DNA of 64,000 nucleotides, from positions 248,001 through 312,000 of the forward strand of contig NZ_CP114780.1 in assembly GCF_027359415.1 (NCBI RefSeq), written 5' to 3'. Positions 37,286 to 53,036 of this stretch are shown piece after piece. Position 1 is the stretch's first letter. Every line of letters starts with the position of its first letter. The translations under genes were made by a program, and so were the position numbers. The notes beneath the pieces are model-generated. The model had not been told where the DNA came from, did no database searches, and saw only the letters and a program-made list of their open reading frames with translations. This DNA comes from Prochlorococcus marinus str. MIT 0918 (lineage in GTDB: Bacteria > Cyanobacteriota > Cyanobacteriia > PCC-6307 > Cyanobiaceae).

Positions 37286-38473
37286 TTGGATCAGAAAAAA
37301 AACGATTGTCCTACTGTAGGAGTAATAGGTGGAGGCCAGCTTGCGCAAATGTTGGCAAAGGCAGGTAAGAAACATGGAGTCAATGTAATTGTACAAACAG
37401 GCTCTTCAAAGGACCCTGCTGGGAATTATGCTTATGATCTTGTACTTTCACATACTCAGGATATTAAAGGAACTAGGCAGTTATCAGATCATTGCAACTC
37501 TATTACCTTTGAAAATGAATGGCTAGATATTGAAGGATTATCGCTTTTGGAAGAAGATGGAGTGTTCTTTGTCCCAAATCTTTCAGCTATATCTCCGCTT
37601 GTAAATAAACTTTCACAAAGAAAACTTATTGATAGATTACATATACCTGGACCAAAATGGATTTCTTTGTCAACACTTAAATTAGACGACTTTATATTGC
37701 CTGATAAATGGACTTTTCCTCTTATGGCTAAATCATCTATTGGAGGTTACGATGGAAAAGGTACTAAGATTATAAACGACTATAATGATCTTAAGAAACT
37801 CTTATTAGAAGTAAATCATGAGAATTGGTTTTTAGAACAATGGGTAAGTTATATTAAAGAATTATCATTAGTTATTTCAAGATCTACTGACGGAGTTGTT
37901 AAATCATTCCCTTTAACTGAAACCATACAAGATCGTCAAATATGTGATTGGGTCTTAGCACCTGCTGATGTAAATCATGCAGTTAAAGCACTTGCTTATA
38001 ACCTTGGAGTATCTTTGGTTAGAGAGCTTAATTATGTGGGAGTGTTGGCAATAGAGTTCTTCTGGGGAGAATCTGGATTATTAGTAAATGAAATAGCTCC
38101 AAGAACTCATAACTCAGCACATTTTACTATTGAAGGTTGTAAGAGTAGCCAATTTGAACATCAAATTCTCATAGCCGCTGGACTACCAGTCCCTTCAACA
38201 GACTTAATATCGCCTGGTGCTATTATGGTTAACCTTTTAGGATATTCAGATAATAATAACCCTAATAATTCTATAGATAATAGATTAAATCAACTTAGTG
38301 AAATATCTGGACTAAATATACACTGGTATGATAAACAAAATAATGCTCCTGGTAGAAAGCTAGGACATGTAACAATGCTTTTAAAGGCTAAAGATTGCAT
38401 AGCAAGGAAACAAGAAGCGATAAATGCGGTTCAAAAGATCAGGTCTATATGGCCCAATGAGATAAACTCCTAA
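37286..38473 (+). CDS. purK: N5-carboxyaminoimidazole ribonucleotide synthase
   Basis: A 395-aa ATP-grasp enzyme of purine biosynthesis. It has GVIGGGQLAQMLAKAGKKHG at the N-terminus, KSSIGGYDGKGTKI in the ATP-grasp domain and VNEIAPRTHNSAHFT with the metal-binding Glu/Asn. The start is TTG at 37286. The 6S RNA gene follows within about 20 bp, the same order as in other cyanobacteria, where purK and 6S RNA can be cotranscribed. Confidence 0.93.
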   Translation: MDQKKNDCPTVGVIGGGQLAQMLAKAGKKHGVNVIVQTGSSKDPAGNYAYDLVLSHTQDIKGTRQLSDHCNSITFENEWLDIEGLSLLEEDGVFFVPNLSAISPLVNKLSQRKLIDRLHIPGPKWISLSTLKLDDFILPDKWTFPLMAKSSIGGYDGKGTKIINDYNDLKKLLLEVNHENWFLEQWVSYIKELSLVISRSTDGVVKSFPLTETIQDRQICDWVLAPADVNHAVKALAYNLGVSLVRELNYVGVLAIEFFWGESGLLVNEIAPRTHNSAHFTIEGCKSSQFEHQILIAAGLPVPSTDLISPGAIMVNLLGYSDNNNPNNSIDNRLNQLSEISGLNIHWYDKQNNAPGRKLGHVTMLLKAKDCIARKQEAINAVQKIRSIWPNEINS

Positions 38474-38484
38474 CTTAACTTCTT

Positions 38485-38666
38485 TATTCTGGAACTGTTT
38501 TGTTGGTGATGGCTTTTTAAGTGCTCTGATCTGACTCTCTTTCGATCTGAGGAGACTGTCGTTATGGGGAAGTAAACCAGTTTAACTGGAAATGGAACCT
38601 AGCTTTGCCTCCTCTTCTGGTTAATCCAGGTCGATCTCTTAGGTCACACGGCAAAACGGTTCAATT
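38485..38666 (+). ncRNA. ssrS: 6S RNA
   Basis: A G+C-richer stretch of about 180 nt directly after purK. The closing stem is an 11-bp pairing of GAACTGTTTTG (38492-38502) with CAAAACGGTTC (38652-38662). Inner pairings such as GATCTGA with TCGATCTGAGG fold the rest into a long interrupted rod with an internal bulge, the shape that mimics an open promoter and binds RNA polymerase. Location next to purK is the hallmark of cyanobacterial 6S RNA (Yfr7 in Prochlorococcus). End positions are estimated. Confidence 0.88.
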
Positions 38667-38668
38667 TT

Positions 38669-38952
38669 TATTTATTTATAGACTTAGTAATTAATATTTA
38701 AATAACAGGGTAAAATGTAAGAATCTATTTTGAAGTCGTGTTATATATTCCTTTTTATAAGAATCTGAATAATTATATAGTTTTATTTTATAGAATGATT
38801 CATGTTTATAAGAGGAACTATTAGTTAAATTTCATACTAATTAAGAATAAGCTAGGAATGAACTTAAATTTTACTTACTTATATTTTTTCCTTAATATTT
38901 TTACAGATTAATCACAGCTTTGGATTATTATAGAGATAGCTTTTAGATAAAA
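38669..38952. other. AT-rich spacer at the island boundary
   Basis: 284 bp between 6S RNA and the first island gene. It is very AT-rich, and I see no ORF of note, tRNA or direct repeat. Promoter elements for the cassette are expected here, but no single candidate stands out. Confidence 0.5.
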
Positions 38953-39972
38953 ATGCTTATTCTTGAGGCTAATGGCAAACTGGTTTACCGTAAGAACCCA
39001 AATCCTCAACAAAAAAACCTCGAAAACTGTGCACTTGTTGCTCCAAAAATAGTAGGTGTTTGTTCAAGTGATATTCCTAGATGTTTTGATGGGAAAGCCT
39101 ATTTTTACCCATTAACGATAGGTCATGAATTTATGGTTGAAATTTTAGAAAGTAATTCTAATAAATTAATCAAAGGAGATAAATGTGCTGTTTTCCCACT
39201 TAAACCATGTTTTAATTGTCTTGCCTGTACCAGAAAAGAATATAACAAATGCAGTAATTATTCATATTATGGCTCAAGAGAAAATGGTGGCATGCAGAAA
39301 ACAATAAATATAGATTATTGGAACTTAATTAAGCTTCCAGAGGATTTTGATGATTTATCCGGTTCTTTAATAGAGCCTGTAGCAGTCTGTGTAAATTTAT
39401 GTAGAAAAATTGAAAAAAATACAAATGTTTTGCTAGTCGGAGGTGGTTTTTTATCTCAAATAATATGTCAAATTTTGTTAGATAAATGTTGTAGTGTTAC
39501 TTGTGTAGATAGAAATAATTACAAAAAAGTTTTCTTTCCTGATAACGTTATTTTTATAGATTCTATTAATAAAATAAAAACCGAATTATATGATATTTCT
39601 ATCGATTGTTGTGGATCACCAAATGCTATTAATAATTGCATAGAACAAACTAATCAAGGAGGTAAAGTTATATTTTTAGGTAATCCTTCGGATTCAACAT
39701 CAATAAACTCAAAAGAAATTTCAACTGCAATGAGAAGAGAGTTAACATTACTAGGTTCTTGGAATAGTAGATTCAGACCTGATGATATTAGTTTATGTGA
39801 TTGGAATGAAGGTATAAGATTAATCTCTAAAGGAAAGTTATCATTAAAATCACTTATAACCCATGAATCTATGCTAGAAAACTCTCCTGAATTATTATCC
39901 AAAATAAATCGAAGAAGGGTAGATAGAAAAATATTGCCTAATTTTAATAAGGCTATTATTCATATAGATTAA
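38953..39972 (+). CDS. Zinc-dependent medium-chain alcohol/polyol dehydrogenase
   Basis: A 339-aa MDR protein. Catalytic zinc ligands fit Cys in VGVCSSD, His-Glu in TIGHEF and Glu in LIEPVAV. Structural zinc cysteines lie in PCFNCLACTRKEYNKC. The Rossmann motif LLVGGGFLSQI is slightly unusual. It is related to sorbitol, threonine and ribitol-5-phosphate (TarJ-type) dehydrogenases. It is the first gene of the accessory cassette, with the next gene 2 bp away. A role in making a polyol or ketose phosphate is inferred from context. Confidence 0.8.
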   Translation: MLILEANGKLVYRKNPNPQQKNLENCALVAPKIVGVCSSDIPRCFDGKAYFYPLTIGHEFMVEILESNSNKLIKGDKCAVFPLKPCFNCLACTRKEYNKCSNYSYYGSRENGGMQKTINIDYWNLIKLPEDFDDLSGSLIEPVAVCVNLCRKIEKNTNVLLVGGGFLSQIICQILLDKCCSVTCVDRNNYKKVFFPDNVIFIDSINKIKTELYDISIDCCGSPNAINNCIEQTNQGGKVIFLGNPSDSTSINSKEISTAMRRELTLLGSWNSRFRPDDISLCDWNEGIRLISKGKLSLKSLITHESMLENSPELLSKINRRRVDRKILPNFNKAIIHID

Positions 39973-39974
39973 TT

Positions 39975-40730
39975 GTGGAAAATAATATTGCATGTGTCAT
40001 TCCTTGTTTTAATGAAGCTAATCGTATTGATAGTTTGATTAAAGAGATTCTTTCATTAAATTCTTCAGATATAGATTGGTATTTACTTGATAATGGTTCT
40101 ATAGATGATACTCAAGATAGAATATGTCAACTTAGCATAAATAAACTTGAAGCTAAGAATATAATGTTTATTAGAAAGAATATTAATGAAGGCTATGGCT
40201 CTGGAATTAAATATGCCTTTAAGAATATTGTTATAAATAATTCATATAAAGTATTTTGTTGGACCCATGGAGATGGTCAGACTCCTTTAAATGATATCTT
40301 ATTAGCTAGTAATTTACTTAAGATTCAAACTAATGGTTTCTATTTAATAAAAGGGAAAAGGTTATCTAGAAAAGATGGAACCATTTCTTATTTATTTACA
40401 TTTGTCTTAAATTTAATATTATTTATATTAGGCTATAGACAAGCAATTTCGCCAAACTCTCAACCAACATCAATATCTGTAGATCTAATGAATAAGATAA
40501 TTAACAAACTTCCTGAAGATGGTAAGTTTGATATTGCAATCTTATTATATATTATAGACTTAGGAGTAAAAATCTCGAGATTCAATGTACATTTTTTAGA
40601 AAGGGAACAAGGAGAAGGAGCTAATGAATCTATAGATGCTAAGATAATTTATTCTATTAACATGTTAAAATATATATTTAAATGGAAAATTAGACATTTA
40701 TTTTCTAATAACATATCATTAACAAAATGA
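39975..40730 (+). CDS. GT2 glycosyltransferase, polyprenol-phosphate sugar synthase-like
   Basis: A 251-aa GT-A enzyme starting with ACVIPCFNEANRIDSLIKEIL, with a DNGSIDDT nucleotide motif and a WTHGDGQTPL (DxD-like) region. The RLSRKDGTISYLFTFVLNL stretch resembles the dolichol-phosphate mannose synthase/GtrB group, which loads a sugar on a polyprenyl phosphate. It lacks the C-terminal membrane helices of longer GtrB proteins. The start is GTG at 39975. Stop and start overlap the next gene by 4 bp. Confidence 0.78.
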   Translation: MENNIACVIPCFNEANRIDSLIKEILSLNSSDIDWYLLDNGSIDDTQDRICQLSINKLEAKNIMFIRKNINEGYGSGIKYAFKNIVINNSYKVFCWTHGDGQTPLNDILLASNLLKIQTNGFYLIKGKRLSRKDGTISYLFTFVLNLILFILGYRQAISPNSQPTSISVDLMNKIINKLPEDGKFDIAILLYIIDLGVKISRFNVHFLEREQGEGANESIDAKIIYSINMLKYIFKWKIRHLFSNNISLTK

Positions 40731-41341
40731 GTTTACACCCTATTGCACATAGGATTCTATCAATAGAAGATAGTGAGAAAATTCCTAAAGATATTGGATT
40801 GGAATTTGATGTACATGCTTATAATCAAAAATTGGTCATAGCTCATGATTCTTTCCACAATGGAGATGATTTTGAGGATTATTTATGGTCCAATAGAAAT
40901 CGTGTACTTGCTATTAACGTTAAGGAAGAGGGCATTGAAGATGAAATTATAAGAATTGCTAATAAGGTTTCTTTAGATAAATATTTTATGTTTGATCTTT
41001 CATTTCCTGTAGCTTATAAGATGGGACAGAATTATAGGAGTAATATATGCTTGAGAGTTTCTCAGTATGAAATGCTAAATTACAAAAAATGTAGTGATAT
41101 CAGTAGTTATTTGTGGGTTGATACCTTTGATGGTTCATTTTGGATGACTGAATCTGACATTGAAAATGCTCAAAATAATAATTTTAATCTTTGTTTTGTT
41201 TCTCCAGAACTACATTATCCATCTTTACGTTCCCCTAGCCTAATAGACACAAGAAAATTCGATAATAAGATAAATTCTATTAAAAATTCATTGAGTGGAA
41301 CTAATTATATATGTACTAAGAACTATCAGAAATGGATTTAG
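40727..41341 (+). CDS. Glycerophosphodiester phosphodiesterase-like protein
   Basis: A 204-aa protein with the start of a GDPD TIM barrel. HPIAHRI replaces the usual AHRG, GLEFDVHAYNQ gives the Glu and Asp metal ligands, and LVIAHDSFHNG gives the HD pair. The chain is shorter than typical GDPDs (about 240-300 aa). The PENT motif after AHRG is absent. It may cleave a phosphodiester of the surface polymer or a precursor. It sits inside the cassette and overlaps its neighbour. Confidence 0.55.
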   Translation: MSLHPIAHRILSIEDSEKIPKDIGLEFDVHAYNQKLVIAHDSFHNGDDFEDYLWSNRNRVLAINVKEEGIEDEIIRIANKVSLDKYFMFDLSFPVAYKMGQNYRSNICLRVSQYEMLNYKKCSDISSYLWVDTFDGSFWMTESDIENAQNNNFNLCFVSPELHYPSLRSPSLIDTRKFDNKINSIKNSLSGTNYICTKNYQKWI

Positions 41342-41345
41342 ACCT

Positions 41346-42302
41346 ATGACATTTATTATTTCAAGTCTAAGTATAATATATATCTTTAGGTGTTATATAC
41401 ATTTAAAGAAAAGACTCAATTGGCAACTTGCATTATTAATAATTCTATTTTTCATGACAAGTTTATATGAAATTTCATTTCTATCTTTTATAGGAAATAA
41501 TCTATCTACACAACTTAAATTTTCACTCACTGGGTTTCAGTCTTTATTTAATGGTTGGTTCTTAGGTAATAGATCAGGCTTATTTTTAATATCCCTTTTA
41601 TATATTATAGAGAAGGTAAGTAGATCTTCTATAAGTTCATCTATCTTAATTGAGATTAGTTTATTAACGATAGGTCTGGCAACTCCACTTTCATTAATAT
41701 ATCCAAATTATTCTAGTATTCCTATTATTTTAGGTTTATTTATTTCAATACTAATTCATCTTTCAAAAAGAAATAGTAAATTTGAATCAAATTCATTAAC
41801 ATTTTTTTCTTTTATCGATTATAAATCTTTTAAGAGCCGTGATTTTTTTCATATTCTTATTGGAATTATTACATGTTTCACATTACTTAAATTTCCCTTC
41901 GATGATTTATCCATAGAACCAATTTCTTCTGATCATATTCTTAGATTATTTTTTATATGGTTAATAGCTTTGTTTACTCTTTTAAACAAAGGTTTGTTAA
42001 GTAAACAACGTATTCAATTATATTTACCTCAATATTCAATATATGTAGGTTGTGCAATATCTACAGTTCTAATTAATTTATACAATCTTCCAGCTCCTGT
42101 ATCCATATTTACGTTTGATTGTATTTCAGCTATTTGCCTTCTACCTCTTATAGATTTATTAATTATAAGTTATTATACTATAAACAAAAAATTTGAAATA
42201 GGTATATTACGCATTAATAGAATATTCTTTCAAAGGTTTATAGATTTATCACTTATAATATTAATAGTACTATATTTATTGTATGTTTTTACATCAGGAT
42301 AA
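41346..42302 (+). CDS. Polytopic membrane protein, unidentified
   Basis: A 318-aa protein with about nine or ten hydrophobic helices and very few charged residues. I recognise no family. I placed the start at the ATG at 41346, 4 bp after the upstream stop. A GTG at 41295 in the same frame would overlap the GDPD-like gene by 47 bp. Its stop overlaps the start of the next dehydrogenase gene by 1 bp. A role in moving or modifying a lipid-linked intermediate is plausible from context only. Confidence 0.6.
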   Translation: MTFIISSLSIIYIFRCYIHLKKRLNWQLALLIILFFMTSLYEISFLSFIGNNLSTQLKFSLTGFQSLFNGWFLGNRSGLFLISLLYIIEKVSRSSISSSILIEISLLTIGLATPLSLIYPNYSSIPIILGLFISILIHLSKRNSKFESNSLTFFSFIDYKSFKSRDFFHILIGIITCFTLLKFPFDDLSIEPISSDHILRLFFIWLIALFTLLNKGLLSKQRIQLYLPQYSIYVGCAISTVLINLYNLPAPVSIFTFDCISAICLLPLIDLLIISYYTINKKFEIGILRINRIFFQRFIDLSLIILIVLYLLYVFTSG

Positions 42303-43330
42303 TGCCTAGAGCCGCTTTTCTAAAAAGAATAAAGACCTTTGATATAAATGAGCATAATCATTGTATTGATGATGATGATATTGTTAGACTGAAGGTAGAT
42401 AGTTGTGCTATTTGCGGATCTGACATAAGGATATTTAATAAAGGAAATGAGCGACTTACCTATCCAGCAATAATTGGACATGAAATTTCGGGTATTGTTT
42501 CAGAATCTAATGTTGATGGTTTTAAAAAAGGAGACCGATTGAGCCTTGGTGCTGATATACCTTGTGGTAAATGTCATAAATGCATAAATGGTACACCTAA
42601 CCTATGTAATGATAATCTTGCTATCGGTTATCAGCTTCAAGGTGGCTTTGCTGAATATATAAATATAGATAGAAGAGTTTTTGACTTTGGACCAGTAGTT
42701 AAAATTCCAGATGAATTAGATATAGAAGCAGCTGCGTTAGGAGAGCCTTTGGCTTGTGCAATAAATGGCGTTGAAAAGCTTAATGTTAAGACTCATTCTA
42801 GAATAATGATAATTGGTGGCGGACCTATAGGAATTATGTTGGGTTATTTATGTAAAAAATTAAAAAAAGCAGCAAGAATTGATTATGTTGAGATTTCAGA
42901 TTACAAAAGGGATTTTATAAAAGGGCTAAATATTTCCGATAATACTTATAATTATAATGATTTTATTTCTAAAATAAATAAATATAAAAGATCATATGAT
43001 TATGTCTTTACTGCCTGTAGTGTTTTTGATACTCATCAGTTAGGCATTTCCCTATTAGATAATGGAGGAAGTATCAACTTCTTTGGAGGGCTTCCTAATC
43101 CTGCACCAAGTATTGAACTTATTACAAACGATCTTCATTATAAAGAAATGACTTTAACTGGTAGTCATGGTTCAACACCTCGACAACATTCAGAGGCGAT
43201 TAAAATGATTACTAAAGATAGTGCTTTCTTTCTTAGTCTAATTACTGATAGGTTTCCATTGGATAATATTAATGAAGCCTTTGAAATAGCCTCTAGAGGT
43301 GAAAGTATTAAAATCCTGATTAAGCCATGA
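42302..43330 (+). CDS. Zinc-dependent medium-chain alcohol/polyol dehydrogenase (second copy)
   Basis: A 342-aa MDR protein with catalytic zinc ligands in SCAICGSD, IIGHE and LGEPLA, four structural cysteines in PCGKCHKCINGTPNLC and a Rossmann motif IIGGGPIGI. It resembles sorbitol/L-threonine dehydrogenases and is clearly distinct from the copy at 38953, so this is not a recent duplication. It overlaps the epimerase gene by 4 bp. Confidence 0.85.
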   Translation: MPRAAFLKRIKTFDINEHNHCIDDDDIVRLKVDSCAICGSDIRIFNKGNERLTYPAIIGHEISGIVSESNVDGFKKGDRLSLGADIPCGKCHKCINGTPNLCNDNLAIGYQLQGGFAEYINIDRRVFDFGPVVKIPDELDIEAAALGEPLACAINGVEKLNVKTHSRIMIIGGGPIGIMLGYLCKKLKKAARIDYVEISDYKRDFIKGLNISDNTYNYNDFISKINKYKRSYDYVFTACSVFDTHQLGISLLDNGGSINFFGGLPNPAPSIELITNDLHYKEMTLTGSHGSTPRQHSEAIKMITKDSAFFLSLITDRFPLDNINEAFEIASRGESIKILIKP

Positions 43331-44016
43331 AAATAAACAAATTTAAGCTCCTACCTTCGATAATGTGCATCAACTGGAATAAAGTTGGTGAAGAACTTAT
43401 TCAAATATCAAACAGAGTTGATTTTTTTCATTGGGACATTTTAGATGGATCATTTGCCCCTGATTTTACTATGGGTAGTAGTATTATTAATACAATTAGA
43501 GAAGAATTTCCAAAAAGAGGTGACTATCATCTAATGGTAGAAGAACCCTCTAGACTGTATAACAGCTTAGGATTTAAGGAAGGAGACAGAGTTTGTGTTC
43601 ATGTTGAATGTTCTAAGAATTTACATAGAGATGTTTCTAAACTTAGAGAATTAGGCCTTTCACCAGGTGTTGCTTTATCACCAGCAACTCCATTAGCATC
43701 ATTAGATTATATTTTGGATGATATTGACAGAATTCTAATATTAACTGTAAATCCAGGTTATCATAGTCAGCCTTTAGTTAAGCAGGCTATATCAAAGATA
43801 AGAGATCTTTCTACAATATTATCAGAAACTGGACAAGAAAGAATATCTATAATAGCTGATGGCAATGTTAATTTAAATACTATACCCAGCATGTTTAAAA
43901 GTGGAGCAAGAGAATTTGTATTAGGAAAAAGTGGTCTTTTCTATGGAGACATTATTAAAAATATTGATAGTCTTGAACAAATGCTTATTAATTTATCAAC
44001 TAAGGATTCCAAATGA
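43327..44016 (+). CDS. Ribulose-phosphate 3-epimerase family protein
   Basis: A 229-aa TIM barrel. Metal ligands fit His and Asp in FFHWDILDG, His in YHLMVEEPS and Asp in IADGNVN. The substrate loop LTVNPGYHSQ is present. The HWDILDG and IADGN motifs differ from housekeeping Rpe (usually HxDxMDG and VDGG). This suggests a dedicated pentulose- or hexulose-phosphate epimerase rather than the Calvin-cycle enzyme. It is coupled to both neighbours by 4-bp overlaps. Confidence 0.82.
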   Translation: MKINKFKLLPSIMCINWNKVGEELIQISNRVDFFHWDILDGSFAPDFTMGSSIINTIREEFPKRGDYHLMVEEPSRLYNSLGFKEGDRVCVHVECSKNLHRDVSKLRELGLSPGVALSPATPLASLDYILDDIDRILILTVNPGYHSQPLVKQAISKIRDLSTILSETGQERISIIADGNVNLNTIPSMFKSGAREFVLGKSGLFYGDIIKNIDSLEQMLINLSTKDSK

Positions 44017-44933
44017 AACTATCAGTAAACACAGGTTTTTTAGTTAATAGATATCCTTCCCCAAGACAATGGTGTGAAGTAATAAATCAACTTGGAGTTA
44101 AAAATATTCAAATAACGGCAGATCTTTTTAATCCTTCCTATCCAGATAAAATATTAAGCAAGCAAGTAGATGAAATTAATAAATTAAAAAATGATTATGG
44201 CTTCACAATCTATTCCGCATTTACAGGTGCCTTTACTCGAGTAAACCATTTTTGCCATCCTGATGAGGATGTTAGAAATTATTGGCTGAATTGGTTTGTT
44301 CGATATGCTGACTATGCTTCTAAAATAGGTGTAAAGCGCTTAGGTAGTCATATAGGTATACTTTCTGTACCTGACAATAAAACCAATCGCAATTTCTATA
44401 GGGATATTTGCGTAACTTATTGGAATAAGTTATATAATGAAGTTTCTAAGTTTGGTATAGAAGAATTAACCTGGGAGCATATGAGCATAGAAAGAGAACA
44501 AGGGCATACACAAAAAGATATCGATTGGTTATTGAGAGAACTCTCTAGAGAAGGACTTCCCATTAACCTTTGTTTAGATCCAGATCATGGAGATTTATCA
44601 TCATCAAACAATGAAGATTATGAACCCTATGGCCTTATAGAAAAATATGCTAATTTTTCAAGTCAACTTCACCTTAAACAAATAAGCAAGGATAAGAGAA
44701 AAAATAGTCCTTTTACTACTGTATTCAATAAAACTGGTTTAGTAAAAGCAAATAAAGTAATAAAGTTATTATTAGATAAAATTGATAAGCAAAAACATCG
44801 AAATTTCGAGTTAATCCTCGAACTTAATGCTCGTGAAAGAGAGCCTGATGATTCCAATATCGTAATGGATATTCAAGAGTCTTTGAATTATTGGAAGTCA
44901 GCTCTTGATGATTTAAGTGTAGAATATGAATAA
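44013..44933 (+). CDS. Sugar-phosphate isomerase/epimerase (xylose isomerase-like TIM barrel)
   Basis: A 306-aa protein starting MKLSVNTGFLVNRYPSPRQW, with GSHIG, LTWEHMSIEREQGHT, LDPDHGD and ILELNARERE. These acidic and His residues fit the metal site of the AP-endonuclease-2 / tagatose-epimerase fold. The N-terminus and the WEHMS block recall erythrulose-phosphate epimerases of erythritol pathways (EryH), but only loosely. It probably acts on a tetrulose, pentulose or hexulose phosphate made by its neighbours. It overlaps the next gene by 8 bp. Confidence 0.75.
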   Translation: MKLSVNTGFLVNRYPSPRQWCEVINQLGVKNIQITADLFNPSYPDKILSKQVDEINKLKNDYGFTIYSAFTGAFTRVNHFCHPDEDVRNYWLNWFVRYADYASKIGVKRLGSHIGILSVPDNKTNRNFYRDICVTYWNKLYNEVSKFGIEELTWEHMSIEREQGHTQKDIDWLLRELSREGLPINLCLDPDHGDLSSSNNEDYEPYGLIEKYANFSSQLHLKQISKDKRKNSPFTTVFNKTGLVKANKVIKLLLDKIDKQKHRNFELILELNAREREPDDSNIVMDIQESLNYWKSALDDLSVEYE

Positions 44934-46458
44934 AAAGATAGCAGTTGCTATTCCTATAGCTGGTCAATCAACAAGATTTCAAAAACACGGATATAATACT
45001 CATAAGGCTTTTCTTCCACTCAATAAGAATTGTATATTAGAAAACATTATTCTTCAGTTTGATAGCTCTAATTTTGATATATATATAATATGTACTGAAG
45101 AACAATTAAATCAGAATAATAAAATTATAAGTCAGATACTATCCAAACATATTAATGTAAAAATTCAAAAAATCAAAAAACATTCCTTAGGACCAACTTA
45201 CTCAGTATTAAATTGTGTAGATATAGATGATGATATACCAATAGTAGTTCACTATTGTGATTTTTTAGTTCGAATGGATATGAATAGACTTACTAATTTG
45301 TTATCAGATAATAATATTGTAGCTCCCTACTTTAGTGGTTTTCACCCTGCTTCTTTAGGCACTACAACATTTGCTTATATGAAGGTAGATCAATTAAATA
45401 ATATGATTGCGCTTAAAGAAAAGGAGTCCTTTACTAATGATAGAATTCAAGAACCCTGCTCTACTGGGATATATGCTTTCCCAACATTTAATATATTTAA
45501 AAAAATAGCAACTAAATTATTAGACAATCCAGGTTCATGGGGGCAAAAAGAAGCATATACATCACTTTGTTTGAATATTGCCATTAAACAATTCTATAAA
45601 GTTGTTTGTCTTGAAGTAGAGAATTTTATTTGTTTGGGAACACCAAGAGATTATGAAGAATATTCCCACTGGAGAAACTTATATTTATGTTATAGAAACC
45701 ATGATATAGCCTATGTTAAAGAACCTCATCTTATAACAGCAGCTGGTAAAGGTAGTAGGTTTAAAAAATATGGTTATCTTGTCGATAAGATATTCCTTGA
45801 TTTTCAAGGATATAAACTAATAGAACAAAGCTTTTCTTCTCTTAATAATAATTATAAATTTTTAGCAGCTCTTAAAACACAAGAAATATATTTCGATGAT
45901 AATTTATTAGATTCATCTTCAAAACTCTTTCTTGATGATACACCTAATGGACAATTATTAACACTTAATATGTTAGTTAATAATTATTCTATAGAATCGT
46001 CATTCTTTGTCTCTTCAGCAGATTATAAATTTCATATTGATATATCTAGATTTTATAAATTTATTAATCAAAACAACCCAGATATAATTATTCTAACAAC
46101 AAAATGGAAATATTTTTCTAATGAATCAACTAATAATTATGGATTTCTAAATCTAGATAAGAACTCTCGTGTTACCAACATTATAGAAAAAGAAGAAATA
46201 GACATTAATTCCTCCTATATTAATAATCTCTTAATAGGTACATTTTGGTTTAAGGATAAATCTATTTTATCAATATTAAGCGATAATAATAACCAAGAAG
46301 GAGAGCAATATATAGCTAAAAATATTGGTTCATATCTTTCTACTCTTAGAGTATTTGCATTTGAAGTAGATTACTGGTTGTCTTTGGGTACACCTAAGGA
46401 GTTATTTCTTGCACAATATTGGTTTAATTATTTTGATAAAATATCAAATTTAGAATAA
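44926..46458 (+). CDS. Tandem two-domain sugar nucleotidyltransferase
   Basis: A 510-aa protein with two nucleotidyltransferase-like halves. The first (about 1-260) begins AVAIPIAGQSTRFQKHGYNTHKAFLPL. The second (about 264-510) begins LITAAGKGSRFKKYGYLVDKIFLDF. Both ends repeat a LSLGTPKE / CLGTPRDYEE tail. The GxSTRF/GKGSRF and Lys motifs are those of NTP-transferases that make CDP- or other NDP-sugars. The halves are diverged, so one may be regulatory or may use a different substrate. The tandem layout is unusual. Confidence 0.8.
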   Translation: MNKKIAVAIPIAGQSTRFQKHGYNTHKAFLPLNKNCILENIILQFDSSNFDIYIICTEEQLNQNNKIISQILSKHINVKIQKIKKHSLGPTYSVLNCVDIDDDIPIVVHYCDFLVRMDMNRLTNLLSDNNIVAPYFSGFHPASLGTTTFAYMKVDQLNNMIALKEKESFTNDRIQEPCSTGIYAFPTFNIFKKIATKLLDNPGSWGQKEAYTSLCLNIAIKQFYKVVCLEVENFICLGTPRDYEEYSHWRNLYLCYRNHDIAYVKEPHLITAAGKGSRFKKYGYLVDKIFLDFQGYKLIEQSFSSLNNNYKFLAALKTQEIYFDDNLLDSSSKLFLDDTPNGQLLTLNMLVNNYSIESSFFVSSADYKFHIDISRFYKFINQNNPDIIILTTKWKYFSNESTNNYGFLNLDKNSRVTNIIEKEEIDINSSYINNLLIGTFWFKDKSILSILSDNNNQEGEQYIAKNIGSYLSTLRVFAFEVDYWLSLGTPKELFLAQYWFNYFDKISNLE

Positions 46459-46498
46459 TTAATTAATTAAATAAATTAAAATAAAACAATAAGACTTT

Positions 46499-46876
46499 AT
46501 GAATGAATTTAATAAATTATTTAGATTCTTAACTGTAGGTTTAATTAATAATGTAATTAATTTTGCTGTAGTTTATATTTGCTTTAGTTTCTTTAATTGG
46601 AAAACATCTATAGCAGGTGCTTTAGGATTCGGTTTTGGAGCATTTATTTCATTTACTTTAAACTCTAAGTTTACATTCTTATATTCAAGTAGCTATATTA
46701 GGGCAATAAGAAAATTTGTATTTTTGCAATTATCACTTCTTTTGATATTCTCAATAGTTTTAGGATTGATAAATGATTTTATCGTTAATATACACTTGTC
46801 TTGGTTCATAACAACATCATTGGTTTTTCTACTAAACTATTATTTCCAAAAATATTATGTTTTTAATAAATCATAG
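46499..46876 (+). CDS. GtrA-family membrane protein
   Basis: A 125-aa protein with four predicted helices, matching GtrA. FLTVGLINNVINFAVVYICF, ISFTLNSKFTF and LNYYFQKYYVF are the hallmark regions. GtrA is thought to flip polyprenyl-phosphate-linked sugars across the membrane for a periplasmic glycosyltransferase. Together with the GT2 protein at 39975 and the large membrane protein at 46986 it would make a GtrA/B/C-like set. Confidence 0.85.
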   Translation: MNEFNKLFRFLTVGLINNVINFAVVYICFSFFNWKTSIAGALGFGFGAFISFTLNSKFTFLYSSSYIRAIRKFVFLQLSLLLIFSIVLGLINDFIVNIHLSWFITTSLVFLLNYYFQKYYVFNKS

Positions 46877-46985
46877 TTCCATTTTCTTCGTTGTTGAGTT
46901 TTTTAAAGACAATATCTATTTTCCATTCAATTCTTCTAGCTTATTTATTGTTTTGTAGTAGAATTTATAAAATACCAATAAGTTC

Positions 46986-48809
46986 TTGATAGCACTCTCA
47001 ATTTTAGTAGGAATTATTTTAATCATAATTGCTTCTTATGCATTATGGTCAAAAATTACTTATCACCATACCTTTATAACACTATACATTATATCATCAC
47101 CTATACCTCTTTTTGCTTATACCCAAGCCTGGATTATTAAATGGTATTTATTTTCTATATTCTTAACAACTATTATAATATCTTTTTATAAAATTTATAT
47201 TATTTCTGGCTCTAGTATACATCTTCTTAAAGTAAAATTAGCCGAATACCTTCTTTATAATTTTAATAATATTAGTTTTAAAAATAATAAGTTAATTATA
47301 TCTCTTCTCTTAGCATTAACTCTCTCATTTTATTTTTCTTTTAAAATTATTCCTAGTAATTGGAGGTTTGAAGGACATGATGTTTTATATTATTCATGGT
47401 TAAATGATATTTTTACCATTGACTACTTAGGTTCTATAAGGGTTCCAACTGCATATCCCAATTTATTAAGTGCGAATCATTTAATGGCTGGTAGCATTCT
47501 TTCTCCCTTTCTTTTTCTTGTAAACCCAATAAATATATATTATTCTTTTACAGTAAAGTATGCTCTTGTTTTACTTTCATTTTTTAATTTCTTTTATACT
47601 TATATCTCTTCTATCTTTAGTAGGAATCTTCGTTTAGATTTTACTAATTTAATTATATATATTCTTCTTCTATTTATTCCATTTTCTATTTTAATGCCAG
47701 AAATTGACTATTCACTTGGTATATCTAATTATACAATATTATTTTGTCTCTTTGCTTTAACATCATTATTATTAGATACTTATAAGATAAATAATAATTT
47801 TTCTATTACTAAGATATCAAAAGACAATGTTACTCTTTTTATTTTTCTTTTAACTTCTCTTCTTATTTCCAAGGCCTCAACATTCCCAACATTTTTCTTT
47901 TCATTTATTTTCCTATTACTACATTATTATCGTAGATTTTTTAATAGTACATCAATTAAAAGTCTATTTCAAACTTTCCTCCTACCTTTATTAATTGTCA
48001 TTATTTCTTTTTTAAGTTGGATTATACCTAAAAGTAACCATGGCTCATTAGCAATATCAAATCCATTCTGTTTTATATTAGACATTAATTCTCAATGCCT
48101 AAACTCTACTTTTAACAATCCATTTACTGGTTGGATATTACAGGATGACCACAAGATCCAATTATTAACTAATTTACCTCTTTTTTCTCATCATAATATA
48201 ATTGTATTTATTTATATTTGGTTTATTTCAATTCTACCCTGTTTCTTTTTGGGTACATATCTTGTTAAGTGTTCTATTAACCCATATGTCAATATCTTTG
48301 GGAATTTATCTAGGTATTACTCAATTTCAACAGCACTTTCAGTTGTCTTTATTAGAGAATCTACCAGATTAGGTGGAGGTCATACAGCTCATTCCTATTA
48401 TATTGCATGTATATTTTCACTTATGTGCCTTTCTCTTATTATTTACGAATTTATTCCTAGTTCTAATTATAGTTCTTTAATCTTATTTCCTATTACACTC
48501 ATTATTGTATTACTTTTTACATATAACAACACCAATACTTCAATTCTTTCCAAAAGAATAGTAACTATGAACCTTGCTAAGACAAAGATAACAAATAATG
48601 TTTCACTTACAATCCAAGAGAATAATTATTTCGATTCCTCTATTTGTACTAACTCCAATGTTATAAGGGAAACATTTGGTTTATTTCTAGATGATAATGG
48701 TTGTGGAACTAATGATCTCGCCGAAATTAAACATTCATTAGATTCTACTCGTTCTAATGTTTCAATAAATGCTGATAATTCATTTATAAAAAATTGGGTT
48801 ATTAAATAG
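46986..48809 (+). CDS. Large polytopic membrane protein, possible GT-C glycosyltransferase
   Basis: A 607-aa protein with about a dozen hydrophobic helices and a C-terminal periplasmic-looking tail from about residue 525. WRFEGHDVLYYSW in an early loop could be the acidic loop of a GT-C enzyme. I recognise no specific family. The start is TTG at 46986. It follows GtrA and would fit the GtrC role of moving the sugar from the lipid carrier to the polymer, but this is inference. Confidence 0.55.
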   Translation: MIALSILVGIILIIIASYALWSKITYHHTFITLYIISSPIPLFAYTQAWIIKWYLFSIFLTTIIISFYKIYIISGSSIHLLKVKLAEYLLYNFNNISFKNNKLIISLLLALTLSFYFSFKIIPSNWRFEGHDVLYYSWLNDIFTIDYLGSIRVPTAYPNLLSANHLMAGSILSPFLFLVNPINIYYSFTVKYALVLLSFFNFFYTYISSIFSRNLRLDFTNLIIYILLLFIPFSILMPEIDYSLGISNYTILFCLFALTSLLLDTYKINNNFSITKISKDNVTLFIFLLTSLLISKASTFPTFFFSFIFLLLHYYRRFFNSTSIKSLFQTFLLPLLIVIISFLSWIIPKSNHGSLAISNPFCFILDINSQCLNSTFNNPFTGWILQDDHKIQLLTNLPLFSHHNIIVFIYIWFISILPCFFLGTYLVKCSINPYVNIFGNLSRYYSISTALSVVFIRESTRLGGGHTAHSYYIACIFSLMCLSLIIYEFIPSSNYSSLILFPITLIIVLLFTYNNTNTSILSKRIVTMNLAKTKITNNVSLTIQENNYFDSSICTNSNVIRETFGLFLDDNGCGTNDLAEIKHSLDSTRSNVSINADNSFIKNWVIK

Positions 48810-48830
48810 TAATTCTGATATAATAGAAAA

Positions 48831-49103
48831 ATGAAAATTTTTATTATTAACAATAAATTCGTTAAACTCTTAAGTCTTCTTTTTTTAGTTTCTATTTTTC
48901 AGATAGTTTTACTTCCTTCTACTTTTAACTTAATTAAATCTCAAACAAAGAATATATTGTTAATGGATAAAATATTTTATACAAAACTTCTAAATAATAT
49001 ATACATTAAAACCTGTAATTCTTATTTGGCTTTAGAAAGTCCTAAAGAGTCTTTAGTAAATTCGATTTGTAAATTAGAAAGACCTAACTTTTTTAGTAAA
49101 TAA
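48831..49103 (+). CDS. Small protein with N-terminal membrane anchor, unidentified
   Basis: A 90-aa protein with a hydrophobic segment at about residues 12-30 and a short hydrophilic part with three cysteines (KTCNSY, NSICKL and one early). It starts 21 bp after the 607-aa membrane protein gene. No family recognised. The AT-rich codon use is the same as in the rest of the island. Confidence 0.5.
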   Translation: MKIFIINNKFVKLLSLLFLVSIFQIVLLPSTFNLIKSQTKNILLMDKIFYTKLLNNIYIKTCNSYLALESPKESLVNSICKLERPNFFSK

Positions 49104-49116
49104 TTTGAGTTTAATT

Positions 49117-50721
49117 TTACTCTAATGATATCCACCCTTTTACATTATTAGCTTTGAATTTAATATCTTCATTTATTAATTTTAATTCATTTCTTTTACA
49201 CATTCCGGGTGAAGCAACAATAATAATCTTTACATTTTCATTTATTATTTGTGTATCATTATTAGATATTAGTTGTATTCCATCTAATAAATCCTTTATT
49301 CTATCTTCAAATCTAATATAATAATCTTGATCTTTAAGTTTTCCTAGAGTTAATAATAATATCTTTTCTCCTTTAGAATAATTTAGTGGCCCAGATGCTA
49401 ATAAATCAATGTCTTTTTTCCATGTCTCTGGCTTATCTTTTAATATAGTCTTTAAAAGAGGATATGGAATTAGTGATTTATATTCCTGTGTACTATATAT
49501 TATATTTGTTATTTTGTCGGCTATATAAGCTATTATACTTCCTGTTAATAAGCCGATAAGTAGTGATATTGAGAGGATTCTTGATTCATTAGGTGCTATC
49601 GGATCCTCTACTACTGTTGGCTCAGAAATTAATTCCCATGGTGTATTTTGCTTAGCTCTTTGTAATTTAAGATTCGAGATTTGTGATTCAAGGCCTAGAA
49701 GGGTATTCTGATCTCTACCAGCTTGACTTTTTAGCTGCCTGTATTCATTTAATATTACAGTAGGCCTAGATAGGGATTTTTCTAATGAATCTATTCTTCT
49801 TTTTAATGATTTTATAATCTCCGAGTTAGGCTTTAATAGTGATGACTTTATAGATAACTCTGATTCTAGCAAAGCTAATAATTCAAAGTTATCCCGATAT
49901 CTCTCCATAGTTTCTGCATCTATTGGATTAAATGATTGACTTTTTAATTCGCTTGCACTAAAAGATTGAGCAAAAGGTGTACTTTTACTAGTTGTAGGTG
50001 AGCTAGTAGCTGACGATTTTATATCTGTAGATGAAAAAATTGGAAGACCATCCGCTCCTCCCAAGCCATTTTTCATGGAAAAGTCTATATATTCAGTCAT
50101 TGATGTATTTGCTCTAGCTTTATATATATCAATTTGTTCTTCTAAATATTTGATTCCTTGTCGCATACCCTGTTGTCTTGATCTTCCAGAATATCTTTGA
50201 TATGTATCGGTAACTTTTTTTAATACAGGAACAATTAATTGCTTATCTTTATCTTTATATGTGACATTTAATACAGTTGTATCTTTTTTTAATTTAACTT
50301 GAAGTTTAGCATCCTTCCAGTTGTTAAATTTCCATGCTCTCAGATCTTTTCCTAGTTTAAATTTCTCAGCTTTAACATAATTAAATACTGGCATTAAAAC
50401 TGATGGGCTTTTTAATATTGCCACTTCTGTTTTTAAGGATGTGTTTACAGCACTAAATACCCCAGGGATACCTGATGCCGCTATGTTTGAAGCACCACTA
50501 CTACCTTCATTATTTGTAGTTGACCTAATAACTATTTGCGTTGTACCCTCCCACACTTTATCTTGTAATGATAAATGTATGCAACCAATTCCTAGTGATA
50601 TTCCTGTTATAGCAATGACTATACCTTTGTTTCTATATAGTGAATAAATTATTTGTTGATAATCTATATCATCTTCTAGTGTATCTATTAAATTTAATTG
50701 CTCTTTATCTAAGGTGCTCAT
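49117..50721 (-). CDS. Wzz/GumC-like polysaccharide chain-length determinant
   Basis: A 534-aa inner-membrane protein. TM1 is at about residues 35-55 (IAITGISLGIGCIHL), followed by a long periplasmic coiled-coil region with DNFELLALLESELSIKSSLL and a SLEKSLSRPTVILNEYRQLKSQ stretch. TM2 is near residue 385 (SISLLIGLLTGSIIAYIAD). A cytoplasmic tail of about 130 residues lacks Walker motifs, so it is not a tyrosine kinase. It follows the Wza-like gene by 14 bp and both face the cassette. It would set polymer length and link to export. Confidence 0.85.
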   Translation of the reverse strand: MSTLDKEQLNLIDTLEDDIDYQQIIYSLYRNKGIVIAITGISLGIGCIHLSLQDKVWEGTTQIVIRSTTNNEGSSGASNIAASGIPGVFSAVNTSLKTEVAILKSPSVLMPVFNYVKAEKFKLGKDLRAWKFNNWKDAKLQVKLKKDTTVLNVTYKDKDKQLIVPVLKKVTDTYQRYSGRSRQQGMRQGIKYLEEQIDIYKARANTSMTEYIDFSMKNGLGGADGLPIFSSTDIKSSATSSPTTSKSTPFAQSFSASELKSQSFNPIDAETMERYRDNFELLALLESELSIKSSLLKPNSEIIKSLKRRIDSLEKSLSRPTVILNEYRQLKSQAGRDQNTLLGLESQISNLKLQRAKQNTPWELISEPTVVEDPIAPNESRILSISLLIGLLTGSIIAYIADKITNIIYSTQEYKSLIPYPLLKTILKDKPETWKKDIDLLASGPLNYSKGEKILLLTLGKLKDQDYYIRFEDRIKDLLDGIQLISNNDTQIINENVKIIIVASPGMCKRNELKLINEDIKFKANNVKGWISLE

Positions 50722-50735
50722 TTGAAAATTATGTA

Positions 50736-51917
50736 TTAATCAAAAAGGTTTAATAATGAGTATATACCCACTACAGGTCTTGTAATTGTACTTACAGATT
50801 CTGTTAAATACCCTACAGGTGATCTGTTTATATGAATTATATCACCAGATATCAGTATGGGATTGTTTGGTGAGCCTGGCTTAGCTGTGGGCATGTGGTT
50901 AAATTTTCGTTTATCTATTTCACCATTTGAATAAAACCTAATAAAACTTATATCTCCGCTGAATATTTTTTTACCTCCTGAGGCAGCAATTGCCTCATTT
51001 AATGATCTTCCATTTCGTATTGCTATTCTTCCAGACTTCTCAGCTTGGCCACTAATAAAGACATTGAAGGAATCAGGGTTGATATTAATAACTGATGCTT
51101 CAAGTATTTGTTTATTTAGAGATTTTTCACTTTTTCCTATCTTAATAATATCTCCATCAAAGATTCTTATGTTCTGGGACTGATCTCCTTCAAGTATTAA
51201 CGGCATTAGATTAATAGTTGTTTTAATATATCCTCCACCATTTGTAATAGGATTTTTTCTTTTGATCTGTATATTTGATAAATCAGTAAAAGGTGTAATA
51301 CCTTGTGAAATTCTTATTGCATCAAATAAAGTTGGAAAATTTATTGTTTGATATTTCTTATATAATTGTAATGAAGCTGCCTCTTCTGCAGGCATTAAAA
51401 TATTATCTAATTTACCAGTGCCTTTAGTTGATAATGTTCCAACTTCATTTGGTATAGCTTGGTTTATACCTGATAAAGTATATAATCCAGGCCTTTTAAC
51501 CTCTCCAGCTATAAAAGTTTTAACAGGTCTATATGCAATAATTCTGATTGAAATTTTTGGATATCTTACAAAAACAGAATATCTTTTTAATAAATCATTC
51601 TCTAATTCTTCTAAAGTTAATCCTTCTACATAAGTATTTTTTAGTTCAGGAATATATATATAGCCATCTGGTCCTACTGAAACATTAGTACTTAATTCAG
51701 GTAGATGTTCTAATTCTATTCTAATAGTATCTCCTGATCCTATAATATATGGAGTTTTATTCTTATTACTAGAGTAATGATTCTTTATAGGGTTACTATT
51801 TGTTTTACTATTATTTTCTTCATTATCAAGTGAATAAGCACTATTGATTGATAATGTAAGTAAGATTATACTTATTTTAATAAACTTATTTATATTTTTT
51901 CTTGTAACTAGGTACAA
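50736..51917 (-). CDS. Wza-like polysaccharide export protein
   Basis: A 393-aa protein. A signal peptide covers about residues 1-30 (ending SAYSLD), with no lipobox cysteine. A polysaccharide-export domain follows (IGSGDTIRIELEHLPEL, VSVGPDGYIYIPELK), then SLBB-like repeats (VFISGQAEKSGRIAIRNGRSLNEAI and similar). This is the outer-membrane channel family. The start is TTG at 51917; the nearby ATG upstream is in another frame. It heads the two-gene export operon. Confidence 0.85.
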   Translation of the reverse strand: MYLVTRKNINKFIKISIILLTLSINSAYSLDNEENNSKTNSNPIKNHYSSNKNKTPYIIGSGDTIRIELEHLPELSTNVSVGPDGYIYIPELKNTYVEGLTLEELENDLLKRYSVFVRYPKISIRIIAYRPVKTFIAGEVKRPGLYTLSGINQAIPNEVGTLSTKGTGKLDNILMPAEEAASLQLYKKYQTINFPTLFDAIRISQGITPFTDLSNIQIKRKNPITNGGGYIKTTINLMPLILEGDQSQNIRIFDGDIIKIGKSEKSLNKQILEASVININPDSFNVFISGQAEKSGRIAIRNGRSLNEAIAASGGKKIFSGDISFIRFYSNGEIDKRKFNHMPTAKPGSPNNPILISGDIIHINRSPVGYLTESVSTITRPVVGIYSLLNLFD

Positions 51918-52133
51918 TTTTATAAACTTTAAAAAATATCATTCTATTTAACCGCCAAACCTATCTGTTGTCAAGTTTAATCAAGAGATCCAAATATTTA
52001 TAATATGGCTAGTCTAAGTAAATAATAAATTATTATAAAGGAATTTATTTAGTTATTATTCAAATAACTATCTTGGTTTGGTTTTGAATCCTAGCTCCTA
52101 TATTTGAATCTGAAATTATTAGGGTTTATTATA

Positions 52134-52349
52134 TTAATCTTCATCTGATAATTGCAGCCAACCACTTGTCCAATTGGCATATATTTTTAATTCATTCCAA
52201 GGTATTTCTATGGTGATACTTTTATCCATAATAGCGCAGAGAGTTACCCATCGTTCTTCTCCTTTACCCCCGTATTCTAGAACTTCAAAATGTCTATGGC
52301 CTTCTCTTGGTGTATTTGAAGTCCAGGCTTTGTTTGGTGGCCACCTCAT
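52134..52349 (-). CDS. TIGR02450/DUF2389 Trp-rich protein
   Basis: A 71-aa protein with RWPPNKAWTSNTPREGHRHFE and a second Trp-rich half (WNELKIYANWTSGWLQL). This is the conserved Trp-rich cyanobacterial and proteobacterial family TIGR02450, with no known function. The ATG start lies in an AT-rich spacer. It stands alone. Confidence 0.8.
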   Translation of the reverse strand: MRWPPNKAWTSNTPREGHRHFEVLEYGGKGEERWVTLCAIMDKSITIEIPWNELKIYANWTSGWLQLSDED

Positions 52350-52595
52350 TTTCTTGCTTTTGATAGGTACATTTACTTCCCTAATCTATAGAGTGAGAAG
52401 TTTTAATCATTTATATTTTAGGAACAATTTTAGGTTATGCAAATTAATATTATTTTTTTGCTTATAGAAGCATACATGCATATCAAATTTTATTTGGGAA
52501 ATTTCTATAATTATCAACGGCATGCCTATTATAATTATAAGTTCTATTGGTATTACCATTAGTATCTAAAAAGGTTTATTCTTTTCACTGACTTG

Positions 52596-53036
52596 ATGAG
52601 ACCATCAAAACTACGATTTCTTGATTTAATTGGAAGAATTTTTCTTGCCACTGCATTTATCATACCAATTCCTCTTAAGATTCTACGTTACCCATTATTT
52701 TTAAAATCACTAATTGCTCATGGTATCCCACCAAACTTAGCTCCTTTCCTTTTGATTTCTGCTATTTTTTGCATGACAGTTGGTTCTACACTACTTATAT
52801 TTGGTAGCCAACAGAAATTAGGATCATTCTTTTTATTGTTATTTTTAATTCCTACAACAATCATATTCCATCTCTCTCCTTTTCAATATAATATCTTTTT
52901 TACAAATTTAGGATTAATAGGAGGATTAATTATAATTATATCACGTCCTAATCCCTTAATTCATAGAATACCAATAATAAAGTTCGACAAAATTATAAAT
53001 GATATAATATCAAAAATTAAAACTTTAATTAGCTAG
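52596..53036 (+). CDS. DoxX-family membrane protein
   Basis: A 146-aa protein with four predicted helices. LRFLDLIGRIFLATAFIIPIPLKI, IPPNLAPFLLISAIFCMTVG, SFFLLLFLIPTTIIFHLSPFQ and LGLIGGLIIIISRP fit the DoxX family of small quinone-linked membrane proteins. I chose the ATG at 52596; a TTG one codon earlier is the alternative. Possibly accessory, since it lies between the island and the small-gene cluster. Confidence 0.72.
   Translation: MRPSKLRFLDLIGRIFLATAFIIPIPLKILRYPLFLKSLIAHGIPPNLAPFLLISAIFCMTVGSTLLIFGSQQKLGSFFLLLFLIPTTIIFHLSPFQYNIFFTNLGLIGGLIIIISRPNPLIHRIPIIKFDKIINDIISKIKTLIS

Follow-up and report, generated by a model that had tools for sequence, protein, structure and literature searches.

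A candidate mobile pathway to an activated rare ketose or alditol phosphate in Prochlorococcus and a T4-like phage

What might a picocyanobacterium make with a run of overlapping genes that encode dehydrogenases, sugar-phosphate epimerases, a glycosyltransferase and a tandem nucleotidyltransferase (NTase)? This question is raised by positions 38953-46458 of a 64,000-nucleotide stretch of the genome of Prochlorococcus marinus str. MIT 0918, which as a whole is referred to here as the window. Six of the proteins encoded by this run, namely two zinc MDR dehydrogenases (MDR1 and MDR2), a ribulose-phosphate-3-epimerase paralogue (Rpe-like), an EryC-family TIM-barrel protein (EryC-like, or TIM in gene orders), a GDPD-like protein and the NTase, form one conserved, horizontally mobile pathway. 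We consider it probable that this pathway leads to an activated rare ketose or alditol phosphate, which would serve a surface polymer in Prochlorococcus and would provide a unit for DNA in a T4-like phage.

The gene run and its recurrence in a second Prochlorococcus and a phage

All eight open reading frames (ORFs) of the run lie intact on the + strand in the order described by the initial annotation, and the domains of six of them are confirmed by Pfam and NCBIfam matches (ADH_N/ADH_zinc_N twice, Glycos_transf_2, Ribul_P_3_epim, AP_endonuc_2 and two NTP-transferase domains). Overlaps are found at six of the seven junctions and mostly measure 1-8 nt; the membrane protein gene at 41295-42302, which has a GTG start, overlaps by 47 nt, and the MDR1-GT2 junction is a gap of 2 nt. 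The eight genes thus stand as annotated, but the end placed at 46458 does not, as the run continues into a GtrA gene and then a gene for a 607-amino-acid (607-aa) membrane protein. The features of the locus are as follows.

38953..39972, + strand: MDR1, zinc MDR dehydrogenase, GatD-like (NCBIfam PRK10309, PDB 4a2c)
39975..40730, + strand: GT2 glycosyltransferase, probably acting on polyprenyl phosphate (PF00535, 7.6e-9)
40727..41341, + strand: GDPD-like phosphodiesterase, short TIM barrel (predicted structure, fold matches)
41295..42302, + strand: multi-pass membrane protein of no known family (no Pfam assignment; homologue in G152, see below)
42302..43330, + strand: MDR2, zinc MDR dehydrogenase, Tdh/IolM-like (NF003808, below cut-off)
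43327..44016, + strand: Rpe-like ribulose-phosphate-3-epimerase paralogue (PF00834, 151 bits)
44013..44933, + strand: EryC-family TIM-barrel protein, predicted racemase/epimerase (PDB 4k3z, 3.7e-55)
44926..46458, + strand: tandem NTase, PHROG 3980 (two NTP-transferase domains, predicted fold)
46499..46876, + strand: GtrA/DPMS transmembrane protein, putative flipping or retention of polyprenyl-phosphate-sugar (PF04138, 1.3e-13)
46986..48809, + strand: 607-aa membrane protein, candidate GT-C transferase or polymerase (homologues beside other tandem-NTase cassettes)
49117..50721, - strand: Wzz-type chain-length protein (PF02706, 1.5e-7)
50736..51917, - strand: Poly_export/SLBB (Wza-type) polysaccharide export protein (PF02563, 1.7e-16)
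38474..52592, no strand: inserted block, from purK to a short conserved ORF before mfd (comparison with G002 and G012, see below)

The only other cyanobacterium in which we found the gene set is Prochlorococcus sp. AG-402-G22 (G152), which carries MDR1-GT2-GDPD-MDR2-Rpe-TIM-NTase-GtrA in the order seen in the window. The corresponding proteins are 47% (MDR1), 43% (GT2), 47% (GDPD), 61% (MDR2), 65% (Rpe-like), 60% (TIM), 49% (NTase) and 38% (GtrA) identical, and the homologue of the 335-aa membrane protein encoded at 41295-42302 is 36% identical and has moved to the opposite strand. The six enzymes also recur in two nearly identical IMG/VR contigs (L136 and L137), in a compact TIM-MDR1-MDR2-Rpe-NTase-GDPD run that lacks GT2 and GtrA. 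The phage proteins are homologues of the window proteins, with 23-38% identity (for L137, 37% in MDR1 and 38% in MDR2), and retain their distinctive motifs. The phage record is 156 kb long and encodes a T4-type Gp23 capsid protein (1.1e-35); a Pfam search of this record for a terminase was negative. When viral sequences were scanned further with MDR1, MDR2 and the TIM-barrel protein, only the same two contigs came up, and a tblastn search of phages with the GDPD-like protein of the window found no relatives.

The run is therefore no chance arrangement, because the set has been kept in AG-402-G22 and six of its members recur in the phage. The initial annotation had treated the genes as one pathway unit and had counted a gene order found nowhere else as evidence against this; the order is conserved in AG-402-G22 and the six enzymes are clustered in the phage, both of which favor a single unit. 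Moreover, because the phage run is devoid of GT2, GtrA and the membrane proteins, it shows that the six enzymes make the activated unit and that the other proteins only use it. It could be argued that the operon instead combines two unrelated short pathways without a common product, such as one module for polyol catabolism and another for glycosylation, in line with the otherwise catabolic roles of EryC and GatD relatives. This is very unlikely, since all six genes lie together in two Prochlorococcus and, without GT2/GtrA, in the phage, and the set contains neither a transporter nor a sugar kinase.

Enzyme families and a proposed route

The ketose/polyol phosphate chemistry that was proposed at first is well supported by the family and active site of the EryC-like protein, by the GatD-like MDR and by the divergent Rpe paralogue. 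The TIM-barrel protein matches PDB 4k3z at 3.7e-55 over residues 2-298 (the next match is at 1.4e-12), and it conserves E155, R161, E162, D189, H192, H220, Q223, P233-F234-T235, E270, E275 and E277, which include putative metal and substrate ligands. This full-length similarity, together with the active-site residues, identifies it as an EryC-family protein and predicts a racemase/epimerase activity; of the earlier term "TIM-barrel isomerase" the barrel is retained, whereas the activity is better read as that of an EryC-type racemase/epimerase. The entry 4k3z, an EryC-family TIM barrel, is titled "D-erythrulose 4-phosphate dehydrogenase", a title that is out of date because EryC is now described as a tetrulose-4-phosphate racemase (PMC11508834; PMC5992420). 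The erythritol catabolic systems of Brucella and rhizobia (EryABC, EryH, EryI) share with the cassette the EryC-family enzyme and its active-site residues, but they are catabolic, include an FGGY kinase, EryB, TpiA and RpiB, and have no activation step. The plasmid-borne EryC relatives that we inspected indeed sit in ery operons with an FGGY kinase, an EryB-like dehydrogenase, TpiA and RpiB. No EryA, EryB or RpiB neighbours are present in the cassette, and its assignment as a catabolic erythritol operon was rejected on this ground.

Judged by its sequence, the Rpe-like protein is a divergent Rpe paralogue. It scores 151 bits against PF00834, versus 289 bits for a separate housekeeping copy elsewhere in the genome, and its 160.8 bits fall short of the NCBIfam equivalog cut-off of 212.6; AlsE is almost as near to it as Rpe. 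The catalytic residues H35, D37, H68 and D178 are invariant, also in the phage, and the phosphate loops (GYHS, DGN, GKSG) read as altered. MDR1 is nearest to galactitol-1-phosphate 5-dehydrogenase (GatD; PDB 4a2c, 1.7e-41), its best NCBIfam match being PRK10309 with 162 bits, which is below the curated cut-off, and it has the ligands for both the catalytic and the structural zinc. MDR2 scores 139 bits with NF003808, also below cut-off, and its nearest relatives are threonine dehydrogenase (Tdh) and IolM. Neither Pfam nor PDB gave a sequence match for the GDPD-like protein. However, the thirteen best PDB fold matches (E<=0.001) of the predicted model of this protein (pLDDT 90.5) are all GDPDs, which bears out the fold assigned to it earlier. 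Its residues H8 R9, E26, D28, H40 and K66 are conserved and the catalytic HR / E-x-D / HD pattern is present, except that in the phage protein the D of HD is missing.

Based on these families, the pathway would start from a common ketose phosphate, probably a pentulose-5-phosphate and possibly a tetrulose phosphate. The Rpe-like protein would epimerise the carbon next to the C2 ketone, the EryC-like protein would epimerise the carbon beside a ketone adjoining CH2-O-P, and the two MDRs would move or reduce the ketone, after which the NTase would use a nucleoside triphosphate to activate the rare ketose or alditol phosphate so formed. In one possible route that uses each enzyme once, ribulose-5-P would be converted to xylulose-5-P by the Rpe-like protein and reduced by MDR1 to a pentitol phosphate; MDR2 would then oxidise the other end to give a ketopentose-1-phosphate, which would undergo EryC-like epimerisation and nucleotidyl transfer. 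A tetrose version would be equally compatible with EryC. We infer that there is one common product, and the same holds for the direction of the flux and for the uses at the surface and on DNA. Several considerations weigh against this proposal. The roles given to the six enzymes rest on family resemblance, and family does not fix the chain length, since EryC would suggest C4, Rpe C5 and AlsE/GatD C6. MDRs are promiscuous and could act elsewhere, and the pathway does not explain the need for a GDPD and for two NTase sites. In addition, the DNA modification in the phage is deduced from gene context, and full sets are known from three lineages only.

The activated product and its two putative uses

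Which kind of product is made depends largely on the NTase. Its predicted model (pLDDT 88.1) has a sugar-phosphate NTase fold that is RmlA/GlmU-like, with sugar-1-phosphate NTases as the best structural neighbours, and signature residues are kept in both halves. Matches to IspD, TarI and LicC are weak (0.0038 over 51 residues for TarI 4jis; IspD below cut-off), no TarI appears among the top 50 fold matches, and there is no preferential relation to TarI or IspD. These results bear on a strict CDP-alditol pathway, in which a ketose-5-phosphate would be epimerised, reduced by an MDR as by TarJ, activated with CTP as by TarI and polymerised to a poly(alditol phosphate). The combination of an MDR with an NTase follows this logic, the GatD-like MDR1 may interconvert ketose phosphate and alditol phosphate, and the weak IspD/TarI/LicC matches of the NTase would fit. 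However, the best structural neighbours of the NTase are sugar-1-phosphate NTases, Pfam scans of the insertion revealed no polyol phosphotransferase of the TagF/TarF/TarL or LicD type, the users are glycosyltransferases, i.e., GT2 here and a TET-associated glycosyltransferase (TAGT) in the phage, and two MDRs plus EryC exceed what TarIJ needs. We therefore regard this pathway as unlikely, and the CDP-polyol product named by the initial annotation is not established. A literature search for CDP-erythritol found no paper.

The same considerations apply to the comparison with known systems. The TarI/TarJ system for CDP-ribitol shares with the cassette an MDR reductase for a ketose phosphate and a nucleotidyltransferase, but the cassette has two MDRs, two epimerases, a tandem NTase that is not specifically TarI-like, a GDPD and glycosyltransferase users; direct assignment to TarIJ was rejected as a claim of membership because the NTase is not of the IspD/TarI type. 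The CDP-6-D-glucitol pathway of Campylobacter jejuni HS:5 (HS5.17/HS5.18; PMC10918830) also involves nucleotide activation of a ketose phosphate and a reduction. In that case the SDR HS5.17 acts on the CDP-ketose, after activation, whereas both dehydrogenases of the cassette are MDRs, and HS:5 has no epimerases, MDR or GDPD. At most, the cassette might work like TarIJ or HS:5, while membership in either fails on the features tested.

The users, GT2 in the window and a DNA glycosyltransferase in the phage, point as much to a glycosyl donor. According to this alternative, the product would be an ordinary nucleoside-diphosphate-linked (anomeric) rare sugar, which would reach polyprenyl phosphate through GT2 and DNA through TAGT, and the MDR pair and the epimerases would only invert stereocentres. 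Both contexts end in glycosyltransferases, and the modelled RmlA/GlmU-like fold of the NTase would agree with it. On the other hand, the set includes no mutase, kinase or SIS-type isomerase to put a phosphate on the anomeric carbon, and the substrates of EryC and Rpe are ketose phosphates in open-chain form, which makes this alternative rather unlikely.

If the product is an activated rare ketose or alditol phosphate, as we prefer, then GT2 would pass the activated unit in Prochlorococcus to a polyprenyl-phosphate carrier, GtrA would handle it, and a surface polymer would be assembled by the co-inserted membrane proteins, Wzz and Poly_export. The surface-polymer role proposed earlier for this genome is supported by GT2, GtrA, the membrane proteins and the Wzz and Poly_export/SLBB genes, which sit on the same insertion, on the opposite strand, after the 607-aa gene. 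The 607-aa protein has no Pfam match; its homologues in L121 and L125 (36-38% identity) are encoded beside other tandem-NTase cassettes.

In the phage, the TIM gene is immediately preceded by a gene for a dCMP hydroxymethylase (7.5e-57 to T4 gp42, PDB 1b49, versus 7e-4 to thymidylate synthase) and the GDPD gene is immediately followed by one for a TAGT (PF20691, 2.3e-11), which has the PHROG label beta-glucosyl-HMC-alpha-glucosyltransferase. A dCMP hydroxymethylase and a DNA glycosyltransferase are thus combined in a T4-like phage, as in T4-type DNA hypermodification. TAGTs have been proposed to put a second sugar on glucosylated hydroxymethylcytosine in T6-like phages (PMC13390438), and another gene of the phage is distantly related to that of an enzyme annotated for UDP-arabinose synthesis in RB69-like phages (PMC6024577). 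L137 shares these three features with the arabinosyl/glucosyl hypermodification of the T4-like phages RB69, NP and T6, but its sugar-supply enzymes differ; it is a metagenomic phage, and a modification of its DNA is a prediction. A tblastn search with TAGT in phage records found none. We infer from this gene context that the phage may put the pathway product on its own DNA, the unit made by the six enzymes being placed on hydroxymethylcytosine by the DNA glycosyltransferase. It should be noted that the modification cluster of the phage also encodes an additional, single NTase as well as a 416-aa protein of unknown family (L137:2295-4197).

The more far-reaching proposal, that this undescribed six-enzyme pathway supplies an activated rare ketose or alditol to a picocyanobacterial surface glycan as well as to the hypermodified DNA of a T4-like phage, so that a new surface sugar and a new base modification share a common origin, is tentative. 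If true, a pathway that makes unusual sugars or polyols and activates them with a nucleotide would join those known, with a testable parts list, and one would expect a new surface component of Prochlorococcus, likely a phage receptor or shield, as well as a new DNA base modification in the phage. One building block may then serve two purposes, the coat of a cell and the decoration of phage DNA. What surprises most is the copy in the phage, beside genes for DNA modification, and it makes the product directly testable.

The inserted block and related tandem-NTase cassettes

The run is part of about 14 kb (38474-52592) of extra DNA between purK (37286-38473) and a short ORF (52593-53036) that precedes mfd. 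Two genomes of the same genus (G002 and G012) lack the block at this site: there, the homologue of the short ORF lies within ~1.5 kb after purK, and mfd comes next. The GC content is 28.6% in the cassette and 25.1% in GtrA plus the 607-aa gene, versus 33.4% in the left half of the window. The insertion, GtrA, the 607-aa protein and the link with phage DNA modification had been missed by the initial annotation. The search for the TIM-barrel gene covered 400 genomes of the family, in two of which it was found, including that of the window itself; a sample of 386 genomes from the phylum added no further one, and neither of two other members searched of the genus of AG-402-G22 carries it. A scan of genome contigs with the single TIM sequence gave no relatives, and an alignment-based scan found AG-402-G22 only. 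A tRNA-anchored island was rejected, as the 64-kb window has no tRNA gene, and so was a defence system, for which PADLOC gave no match. Promoter and terminator scans were uninformative, promoter matches being fewer than in shuffled sequences.

Other Prochlorococcus and plasmids of Escherichia coli, Azospirillum and Hirschia also have cassettes with the NTase, GtrA, GT2 and GDPD families, in which the place of the MDRs, Rpe and EryC of the window as sugar suppliers would be taken by a class II aldolase that is RhaD/FucA-like, together with a HAD protein and a membrane protein; in the E. coli plasmid version the membrane protein carries a phosphoribulokinase (PRK)-like kinase domain. GT2 genes adjoin GDPD and GtrA genes in the related cassettes, and GtrA follows the NTase both in AG-402-G22 and in the class II aldolase cassettes. 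The latter type, with its PRK-like and HAD proteins, is widespread (L008, L009, L010, L115-L124 in Prochlorococcus, L014, L015, L019) and apparently undescribed; in L014, the E. coli plasmid NZ_CP145712, it lies near an IS26 element. In a third version, a large protein combines an N-terminus that reads as kinase-like with a KbaY-like aldolase domain, and an Rpe-like protein adjoins it or is fused to it. The fused form (L126:10828-14709) has 1293 aa; its kinase-like N-terminus is accompanied by an aldolase domain of the class II FBA/KbaY type as well as by an Rpe-like domain, and a tandem NTase is encoded downstream of it. L125 has the unfused form.

RhaD/FucA-type aldolases yield ketose-1-phosphates, PRK yields ketose-1,5-bisphosphates and KbaY-type aldolases yield ketose-1,6-bisphosphates, while the substrate of EryC has its ketone beside CH2-O-P and is thus of the ketose-1-phosphate type. 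Because all three alternative supply modules deal in this class, the related cassettes would converge on a ketose-1-phosphate as the simplest common denominator, which is our preferred, though weaker, sub-hypothesis. When the aldolase class is compared with the KbaY class (NTase of L125), the NTases are 36-42% identical in their N-terminal halves and 19-25% in their C-terminal halves, which suggests that the C-half may follow the sugar supplied and that the N-half may do the shared job. PHROG 3980, a family of unknown function, occurs in cyanophages and in about 60 IMG/VR contigs, and these comparisons suggest that it may serve exchangeable sugar-supply modules as their activating enzyme. In most of the viral contigs found (L021-L082, L085, L086), including many from IMG/VR and the cyanophages S-SM2 (L085) and Bellamy (L086), a class II aldolase accompanies the tandem NTase.

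Two further loci were observed. The erythritol-type locus of S. meliloti pSymB (L084:5796-6854) encodes a 352-aa class II aldolase that is 33% identical to that of the tandem-NTase cassettes. On a Pseudomonas alcaligenes plasmid (L018:11998-14837), two proteins annotated as GT2, the first of which matches the NTase query, flank GDPD-like and HAD proteins; this module adjoins an ABC transporter and a WavE protein and looks like an unfused version of the tandem-NTase module.

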